Source: Bacteroidales bacterium (GTDB lineage Bacteria; Bacteroidota; Bacteroidia; Bacteroidales; UBA10428). From it: a DNA stretch of 64,000 nt. The stretch covers positions 1-64,000 of the forward strand of contig JAFGEO010000034.1 in the NCBI GenBank assembly GCA_016931575.1. Reading direction: 5' to 3'. Position 1 is the first letter of the stretch. The number at the start of each line of letters is the position of its first letter. The translations under genes were made by a program, and so were the position numbers. Positions 46,768 to 48,675 of the stretch are shown piece by piece. The notes under the pieces are model-generated. The model ran no database searches. It worked only from the letters and a program-made list of their open reading frames with translations, and had not been told where the DNA came from.

Positions 46768-48675
46768 TCAGTTTTTCCTTCCGTTGTTGTTACTCAGTAG
46801 AAGCTGATGAGTTTCATTGAAATTTTCGTTAGCTTCCTGCTGTCCAAGATACTTCTGATTAGCCATTTCATCCTGGGCAATTTCGGAAGATTTCCGGGAG
46901 AGATTTTCAGCCAGCGACTGGATTTCATCCACCGCAGAAGATACGAACAAACATAATTTAGTGCCTTCTTCAAACTCACTGGATGCTGATCCAACTTTTT
47001 GAGATACCTCATTGAAAAGGAGCTGGAGTTTTTCAGAATACGGTTTGATCTTTTGCACCTCAATCGAACTTTTATCAGCCAGCCGTTTCACCTCTGCTGC
47101 CACAACCGCAAACCCTTTTCCGTGTTCACCCGCCCTGGCTGCTTCAATGGAGGCATTAAGTGAAAGCAGATTGGTCTGAAAAGAAATACCCGAAATAATG
47201 TCCGCAATGCCATGAAAATCACCGATAAGCTCATCCTGTTTGGTAAATGTTGTATTCAGGGTACTGAAGTCTTCATTCATGGTGTTGAATTTTTCCACAA
47301 TCTGGTTTACCGATCGGAGATTCTCACTCATTTTAGTAATCGTCTGAGAAACCTCCCGGGCGATCTGCAAGAGCATATTGCTTTTATAATAATGACAGTT
47401 TTCCTTTGTATTAAGGCCATTATGAATAGCCAGGGCCATATCCTTACAGGATCCGTACCCGCAGGAGGAACAGTTGAACAAGGCATCTTCCGTATACTTA
47501 TGCATGCTGTTGAAGATCTCTTTTAATTCTTTACCGGAAGGTATCCTGAGTTTAAACGAGGTTGAACGATCTACATAGTGCCTGCTATACAATCCGGGTT
47601 CCCAGAATTTATCAATGCTTTTATGCAGTTTAGTCAGGTATCTTTTCTTCTGGAATTTCTTAAGCTTATCCATCCCGTGACGTTCGAGCATTTCCATGTT
47701 ACGCTGCTCTACATAATATTCGATCTCATCGGCCGATTTTTCCTGGTTAAGCGTTCCCGGACCGCCATTACAGCCCATTTCACAATTGAGGCAGTCGATG
47801 ATCAGGGGGGCATAGCCTTTGCTGATGTTTTCCGGCAGTTTATCGAGGTACTCGTAAATGGTATGGGGACCCTCTATCTTACGGGAAGCAAATGATATTC
47901 CCTCTTGCTCACGCTCGGCAGTTCTCAGTAGCCCTCCTGGAGTTGAAAACAGCACGGCACGCTCTGCGGGCGGGTTGTCAAAATCACGTTTCTGGAAGGA
48001 AGCAAGGTTTGTGCCCGTTTCTTTCAGGTATTTGTCGATGGATTTTAAGGTTACATTATAATCTCCGATACCGGTTTCATCAAATTCCCGCCGCTTCGCC
48101 AGACAAGGCGAAATGACAACAATCTGATGACTATTATACTGTGGGTAAAACCTTCGGACCATTTTTGCTGTATGAAGCATGGGGGAATCTGCAGGTGCCA
48201 GGTAGGGTATAAGTTCAGGTCGATAAATCTCAATGTAGCTGACAATGGCCGGGCAGGGTTGTGCAATAATGGTGGAAGTCTTCCCCGTTTTTGCATACTC
48301 CAGGTAGGATTTTATAGTTAGTTCGGCACCGAAACTCACATCAAAAATTGCCTCAACCCCCATCTGGTTCAACCAGCCATTAAGGTTAAGGAAATTGCCC
48401 GGGAAATTGGATGCTGCAGCCGGTGCAACGATGGCCACCATTTTAGTGCGATGCTTAAGGGCTTTCAGAAAAGCATTAAAATCATCAACAGGCTGCCTGG
48501 CATCATGTGTGCATGCCGTAATACAACTACCACATCCGATACAAAGGTCTTCATTGATTTTCATATATTGATCACTGCCATCGTTACAAAATTTAACCGG
48601 ACAGGCAGTAATGCAGGCATGGCAATTTACACATTTTTCAGAATCGACATAGATAACTGCAGAAAGGTGATTCAT
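46768..48675 (-). CDS. [FeFe]-hydrogenase-like sensor fused to a chemotaxis-receptor signalling domain
   Basis: This 635-residue soluble protein has two [4Fe-4S] ferredoxin motifs (Cys15/18/21/25 and Cys45/48/51/55), then an [FeFe]-hydrogenase-like H-cluster domain (about 80-370). Its three signature loops keep the ligand cysteines: Cys141 in AQPCPAI, Cys191 (with Lys194) in SPCLAKRRE, and Cys298/Cys302 in NCEMGCNGG. The catalytic proton-relay cysteine before the first ligand is replaced by Pro140. A further four-Cys Fe-S segment (Cys402/405/410/427) follows, then a chemotaxis methyl-accepting signalling hairpin (about 435-600, with [20 protein letters not shown]). No membrane helix is visible. 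I infer a cytoplasmic H2 or redox sensor that talks to a CheA kinase or similar. Confidence 0.92.

Follow-up and report, generated by a model that had tools for sequence, protein, structure and literature searches.

In the HydDB classification of 2016, group C2 of the [FeFe]-hydrogenases was designated 'chemotactic (putative)', a group whose role was left undetermined and for which H2 sensing was proposed (PMC5037454, sections consulted). The consulted sections of later papers repeat the C2 class, find C2 once, or leave group C uncounted (PMC9431212, PMC11406978, PMC12456013). A group C sensor of the PAS/phosphatase type is described in the accessible part of PMC6776011, and no fusions of a hydrogenase domain (H-domain) with a methyl-accepting chemotaxis protein (MCP) occur in the accessible parts of PMC3543383, PMC6288185, PMC4853749 and PMC3625147. 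A C2-type protein with biochemistry was not found in searches of openly licensed papers. The gene analysed here codes for such a fusion and is located on the minus strand of a stretch of 64,000 nucleotides from a Bacteroidales bacterium (assembly GCA_016931575.1, contig JAFGEO010000034.1, positions 1 to 64,000), referred to as the window. Like the HydDB C2 proteins, to which it is likened by architecture, the window protein ties an H-domain with ligand motifs to MCP signalling, here by direct fusion. It probably is a cytoplasmic, soluble chemoreceptor which senses H2 or the redox state and acts on CheA. The kind of protein has already been named with HydDB C2, and the window protein is a new member with good support, from a bacterium in which FlhA was not detected.

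The N-terminal clusters, the absence of the relay cysteine and an extra C-terminal [4Fe-4S] site are shared with TmHydS of group C and TamHydS of group D, as described in the accessible parts of two reports (PMC10407848, PMC13104023). According to the same parts, both of these proteins have Ala at the relay position, whereas the window protein has Pro; after the last cluster, TmHydS continues with a PAS domain, TamHydS has no PAS domain and the window protein runs into an MCP hairpin. Since the relay position of group C and group D sensory enzymes is mostly occupied by Ala (PMC10407848, part consulted), Pro marks the clade of the window protein. With the catalytic enzymes of group A, the window protein has the hydrogenase fold in common, but not the relay cysteine and the Trp loop. 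It resembles soluble MCPs in its MCP domain, its conserved tip and the lack of a membrane helix, and differs from them in using a hydrogenase domain as the sensor and in having no methylation consensus. For treponemes of the termite gut, H-domain 'hydrogen sensors' acting through methylation, possibly in chemotaxis, were reportedly proposed by Ballor et al. in 2012. Many of the 80 relatives compared below are likewise H-domain/MCP fusions from metagenome-assembled genomes (MAGs) of Treponema or Spirochaetaceae; in these, the arm between the equivalent of C427, the last cluster cysteine, and the tip spans 139-142 residues, in comparison to 88 in the Bacteroidota-type window protein.

Domain Organization of the Fusion Protein

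The gene is a single intact open reading frame (ORF) from ATG to stop (46768..48675, minus strand, as for all features of the gene given below) and codes for 635 amino acids; no strand had been named in the first-pass annotation of this DNA. Two N-terminal 4Fe-4S sites (residues 10-60, 48496..48648), with C15, C18, C21 and C25 in the first and C45, C48, C51 and C55 in the second, were matched twice by Pfam Fer4. The H-domain (residues 77-305, 47761..48447) was identified by Fe_hyd_lg_C (PF02906, E 3e-32) and by a fold match, with C141, C191, C298 and C302 as the predicted H-cluster ligands. It contains the L1 loop IAQPCPAIV (residues 137-145, 48241..48267), in which, by alignment, Pro140 stands for the proton-relay cysteine and Ile144 for Trp. 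A C-terminal FeS site is formed by C402, C405, C410 and C427 (residues 402-427, 47395..47472); PF04060 matched residues 400-427 slightly below its cut-off (21.2 bits, cut-off 23) and reached the cut-off in four of the five relatives scanned. The remaining part is the MCP signalling hairpin (46771..47394), with a match to MCPsignal (PF00015) at residues 447-623 (E 1e-27) and two helices predicted by AlphaFold2. No PAS domain was present among the 25 listed of 27 Pfam families (E up to 1), and the MCP domain occupies that position. No membrane helix was identified in the window protein, the top Kyte-Doolittle mean over 19 residues being 1.06. Thus, both the three Fe-S regions and the MCP hairpin without a membrane helix, as annotated at first pass, were recovered. 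None of the NCBIfam hydrogenase models listed exceeded its cut-off, the best being TIGR04105 with 147 bits (cut-off 450).

A frameshift or an assembly error joining two genes, which had been considered at first pass, is ruled out, since the H-domain and the MCP part are found in one frame in 78 of the 80 relatives, which come from unrelated genomes and were scored for the L1 ligand and the MCP tip. The two exceptions are L113, a truncated sequence that does not reach the tip, and L067, which was ill-extracted (318 amino acids, no H-domain).

An AlphaFold2 model, built with 56 homologues and containing no cofactors, had a mean pLDDT of 86.9 and a pTM of 0.74. Residues 1-330 were mostly above 90, the hairpin was at about 75-85 and the last 35 residues were at 50-63. 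The first helix of the hairpin (residues 428-514, 87 residues) is predicted to start right after the last cluster ligand C427, and is followed by a second helix (residues 516-634). By VIA-align 2, whose rows mainly cover residues 1-372, residues 3-370 matched CbA5H with a Z score of 34.9 and a root mean square deviation of 2.6 A over 345 residues, and CpI and the Desulfovibrio and Thermotoga enzymes at Z scores of 30-33; Foldseek concurred with the hydrogenase fold. The MCP half was matched to solved MCPs by sequence. Modelling had been suggested as a check for an H-cluster pocket. It returned the hydrogenase fold, and the pocket itself is predicted from the fold and the placement of the ligands in the sequence, not from geometry.

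Residues at the Predicted H-Cluster Site

The site was compared in an alignment of 86 rows, consisting of the window protein (P0001), five relatives from its family and 80 further loci, and against a group-A-type HydA encoded on contig C27 of the source genome, which has the loop TSCCPGW. Residues 140, 141, 144, 191, 298 and 302 of the window protein are Pro, Cys, Ile, Cys, Cys and Cys. Pro140 falls on the first Cys of TSCCPGW (relay), Cys141 on the second (ligand) and Ile144 on the Trp, and all four cysteines assigned as ligands at first pass are located on ligand columns of the C27 HydA, so that the assignment and both exchanges agree with the earlier annotation. Ser189 and Leu296 both fall on Met of this HydA, and the group-A 'MEEG' stretch is missing. 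The proton-relay Cys and the TSCCPxW loop of group A were not found in the window protein. The roles of the aligned group-A positions are in part those given in PMC10407848 and otherwise general background.

C141 is Cys in 84 of the 86 rows, and C191, C298 and C302 are Cys in 85, the rest being gaps. Q139 and P140 are kept in all 84 rows with a residue at these positions; K194, Cys295 and the four C-terminal cysteines C402, C405, C410 and C427 are kept in all 85. At the eight N-terminal cysteine positions, 83 or 84 rows have a residue, which is always Cys apart from a single Ala at C48. The A84-P85 loop is unvarying across a 56-row alignment and, like K194, presumably occupies a position which contacts the [2Fe] subsite in known enzymes. 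Cys295, three residues N-terminal of the ligand C298, is not found in the source genome's paralogues of group-A or group-D-like type.

A second HydA of the source genome, encoded on contig C158 (G000:C158:34411-35316; L022:3746-5512), has the loop SSCSPGW, with Ser in the column of C141 and the relay Cys kept. The first ligand position is therefore not fixed even among the group-A-type paralogues here. On the same contig, a paralogue of 623 amino acids (G000:C158:47600-48223; L022:16581-18452, minus strand) adjoins a gene for a SpoIIE-type phosphatase. Its first ligand position is taken by Asp and its second by Asn, and the third loop and an equivalent of Lys194 are missing. The two N-terminal clusters and the C-terminal FeS site are retained, and the paralogue may be a redox sensor that has no H-cluster. 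In two rows, this paralogue and the relative L037, the first ligand is Asp, the second is Asn or Glu and the third loop is missing.

Maturases and Chemosensory Proteins of the Source Genome

The maturases and the signalling partners for which the first-pass annotation had asked are all present in the source genome. HydG (492 bits), HydE (345 bits) and HydF (488 bits) were identified above their cut-offs, clustered on contig C27. MCPsignal was matched at 13 places and the CheW domain at five, two of the latter within CheA-type proteins that also have Hpt, dimer and HATPase domains. CheB was found over its cut-off, CheR matched with 190 bits, below the NCBIfam cut-off of 435, and CheD was recognised by eye only. 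H-domains occur at five places, two of group-A type, one group-D-like (a label of this analysis), one without ligands and the window gene.

Distribution and Neighbourhood of Related Fusions

In the family of the window organism, 23 genomes were searched and six had a match at E 1e-40. The ligand-less type accounts for the match in G015 and for an additional one in G005 (27-28% identity); with the G015 match set aside, five family genomes carry the gene or an orthologue without the MCP part. Two such orthologues (L035:3-2937 and L038:1-2916) have a short coiled coil as their last part and sit directly after a GAF gene with a coiled-coil end and weak similarity to HAMP, as detected by Pfam for L035 and by eye for L038. 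In this arrangement, the sensor may be split over two proteins.

A collection of 84,980 species genomes was scanned with two peptide patterns, and the best 80 of 317 confirmed relatives were kept. These belong to Bacteroidota, Ignavibacteriota, Spirochaetota (many of them Treponema), Planctomycetota, Verrucomicrobiota, Acidobacteriota, Thermodesulfobacteriota, Fibrobacterota, Bacillota and Goldiibacteriota. In the H-domain tree, L033 does not differ from L054, nor L034 from L041, and each pair is probably one gene fetched twice; L036 starts at Pro142. In eight close pairs, the ratio of nonsynonymous to synonymous substitution rates (dN/dS) was 0.03-0.14 for the H-domain and FeS part and 0.02-0.17 for the MCP part, which shows that both halves are constrained in the relatives; a ninth pair, the window gene and L054, was saturated at synonymous sites.

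The flanks of the relatives' loci often end at contig ends. Homologues of cheA were identified in the fetched flanks of eight of the 80 loci (L044, L045, L057, L070, L073, L080, L084 and L104), representing five lineages, and homologues of CheB and CheR flank L067. The locus L045 is on a contig titled Alphaproteobacteria (SACF01000019.1), and its fusion gene and neighbours are nearly identical to those of L044 from Bacteroidales; this MAG is probably mislabelled or contaminated. As judged by eye, the window gene has as its neighbours an ORF resembling ankyrin-repeat proteins and a large ORF resembling hybrid histidine kinases.

CheA, HydG and H-domains were counted for loci L040-L079 (40 loci in 39 genomes) and not for L080-L119; these genomes are mostly MAGs, so that absences are weak evidence. 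The CheA dimer domain (PF02895) was matched in 35 of the 39 genomes. In G027 and G028, CheA is encoded in a che cluster beside the fusion gene, and the one at L044 was shown to have Hpt, HATPase and CheW domains; in G036, an ORF at a contig end is by eye a CheA kinase core and has a CheW-domain match; G049 had no match to PF02895 and a CheW match only. Within the family, CheA was found in all five genomes with the gene or the orthologue, versus 11 of the 18 without. The spirochaete genome G053 (5.0 Mb, loci L070 and L076) has nine H-domain matches, two of which are MCP fusions with intact ligands, and HydG over the cut-off was not found in it; an incomplete assembly or another maturation route are suggested alternatives.

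Signalling Hairpin and Methylation

The MCP tip is well conserved across the alignment rows and is of the type which contacts CheA and CheW. A methylation consensus, which we assume in its usual form, was not detected in the window protein by a strict or a loose pattern, and the strict pattern is present in 34 of the 86 rows. Among ten examined receptors of the source genome, the fusion included, seven have the consensus; the two others without it are encoded on contig C136 near a CheA and on contig C27 near hydrogenase genes. An MCP at G000:C27:27137-27700 (L021:5099-7045, minus strand), about 1.1 kb from the C27 hydrogenase genes, has the unusual tip RTNFIAINAAVEAARAGEYGRGF and lacks the methylation consensus. 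The C-terminus EFEKF or EFERF, which we take to be a tether for CheR, is seen in three of the ten receptors and not in the fusion. At L010 (contig C99:15209-15709 of G000, minus strand), an MCP reading frame is broken by one in-frame TAG.

The arm between the last cluster cysteine and the tip measures 88 residues in the window protein, 81-193 among the relatives and 521 in the HAMP-rich L098. Hairpin-length classes require 18 changes on the H-domain tree, compared to a mean of 40 after shuffling; the tree was built by a quick method with L067 excluded, and 29 of its 83 inner branches are open. Hairpin length therefore follows descent, yet hairpins have been exchanged or resized. The idea that the arm length between C427 and the tip is quantised in heptads was rejected, since the best class held seven of 20 distinct lengths and was matched in 12% of random draws (lengths 89 of L067 and 521 of L098 omitted).

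Alternative Functions of the Fusion Protein

Several observations weigh against an H2-sensing chemoreceptor. A measurement of H2 binding for the H-domain/MCP family was not found in searches of openly licensed papers. The window contig has no second H-domain match, and at none of the 80 loci was HydA, HydB or HydC the best query for a neighbouring gene. HydG over the cut-off is missing from eight of the 39 fusion genomes; within the family, it is present in four of the five genomes with the gene or the orthologue and in 12 of the 18 without, so that an enrichment of HydG with the sensor was not seen. Each of the 39 genomes has at least two H-domain matches, and none is suited for a test of HydG with the sensor as sole H-domain. 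Because HydG is unselective and H-domains are multiple, the co-occurrence says little about the sensor itself. FlhA gave no match in the source genome, which is about 98% complete, and was found in four of 14 control genomes. Flagella are unlikely in this bacterium, the completeness of the genome making this evidence fair, not final. Together with the missing methylation consensus, this makes swimming adapted by methylation unlikely here. Of the chemotaxis claimed at first pass, chemosensory signalling is retained, while textbook output and adaptation are not.

The closest competitor, which we regard as clearly less probable though worth considering, is a receptor for redox state and not for H2, in which the cysteines would hold only the [4Fe-4S] half of the cluster and the protein would read ferredoxin or the cytoplasmic potential, like energy-taxis receptors. 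From sequence, an H-domain that senses H2 cannot be told from one that has the [4Fe-4S] part only and senses redox state. Pro140, Ile144 and the lost acidic stretch of group A speak against efficient H2 chemistry, the N-terminal ferredoxin-like clusters could exchange electrons, and the eight fusion genomes without HydG over the cut-off would fit as well. However, K194 and the A84-P85 loop, taken as contacts of the [2Fe] subsite, are unvarying, and HydG is present in 31 of the 39 fusion genomes, though other H-domain proteins are present there too. Moreover, TmHydS and TamHydS contain an H-cluster despite Ala at the relay position (PMC10407848, part consulted).

A slow catalytic hydrogenase, with the MCP-like tail serving merely as a rod for docking or oligomerisation, is improbable. 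Although the full ligand set and the hydrogenase fold are those expected of an enzyme, Pro replaces the relay Cys in all 84 rows with a residue, the MCP tip is conserved and cheA homologues are located near eight of the 80 loci. Even less probable is a degenerate scaffold, with the H-domain as a relic and the MCP part constitutive or driven by another input. Ligand loss in the related H-domain sensor of the source genome and in the relatives L037 and L039 agrees with such decay, as do the group C1 proteins of Hydrogenedentota, in which motifs were hardly found by the authors (PMC11406978, part consulted). The same losses show that retention of the H-cluster ligands is not automatic. In the fusions, the H-cluster and C-terminal cysteines are unvarying, C48 alone of the eight N-terminal cysteines is replaced, and this once, and dN/dS of the H-domain and FeS part is low in all eight pairs. 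For the H2- or redox-responsive chemoreceptor proposed at first pass, the domains, ligands, solubility and reading as a sensor hold, while the sensing of H2 we still infer from the sequence.

Proposed Mechanism

For a chemoreceptor of this kind, HydEFG would install the H-cluster in the window protein. H2 or, conversely, cytoplasmic reducing power delivered by the N-terminal clusters would then change the state of the H-cluster. The exchange of the relay Cys for Pro and the lack of the group-A acidic pathway suggest a slow turnover, and an H-domain of slow turnover would report occupancy or redox poise instead of acting as an enzyme. The C-terminal FeS site, with C427 abutting the helix of residues 428-514, may relay the change to the tip of the hairpin and thereby alter CheA activity. 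For TamHydS of group D, the C-terminal cluster was found not to be reduced by H2, its redox state was disfavoured as the signal, and H2 induces a change in secondary structure at this cluster (PMC13104023, part consulted). From these findings, the signal route in the window protein may be conformational. Having no methylation sites, the protein might work as a non-adapting gauge or depend on methylated neighbours in a mixed array. The output in the source bacterium without FlhA is probably not flagellar, with gliding, pili or another CheY target as candidates.

The sensor unit seems to be portable. A protein of G033 (contig C132; L122:380-3733, minus strand) has the loops QPCAAIV and DCLSC, followed by two PAS domains, a coiled coil and a SpoIIE phosphatase. 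The unit is followed by soluble MCP hairpins, short or long, by HAMP-MCP stacks, by a PAS-PP2C phosphatase or by no more than a coiled coil, in the last case next to a HAMP-GAF protein. A speculative extension, which we would not expect to hold as a whole, is that the FeS sites, the H-domain with the QPCP loop, Cys295 and the C-terminal site form a receptor cartridge for H2 in which turnover is blocked. Pro140 would trap an H2-responsive state and the C-terminal cluster would drive any attached output, allowing non-flagellates a methylation-independent behaviour towards H2 via CheA.

Significance

For the question of how sensory [FeFe]-hydrogenases relay the H2 signal, a soluble single chain with H-cluster ligands and a hairpin contacting CheA would let H2 sensing be read as CheA phosphorylation in vitro. 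QPCP, DCLNC or DCLSC and the four C-terminal cysteines are a simple signature of the clade for finding such sensors. The wide spread of the fusions points to H2 or redox poise as a common guide of behaviour in anoxic communities.
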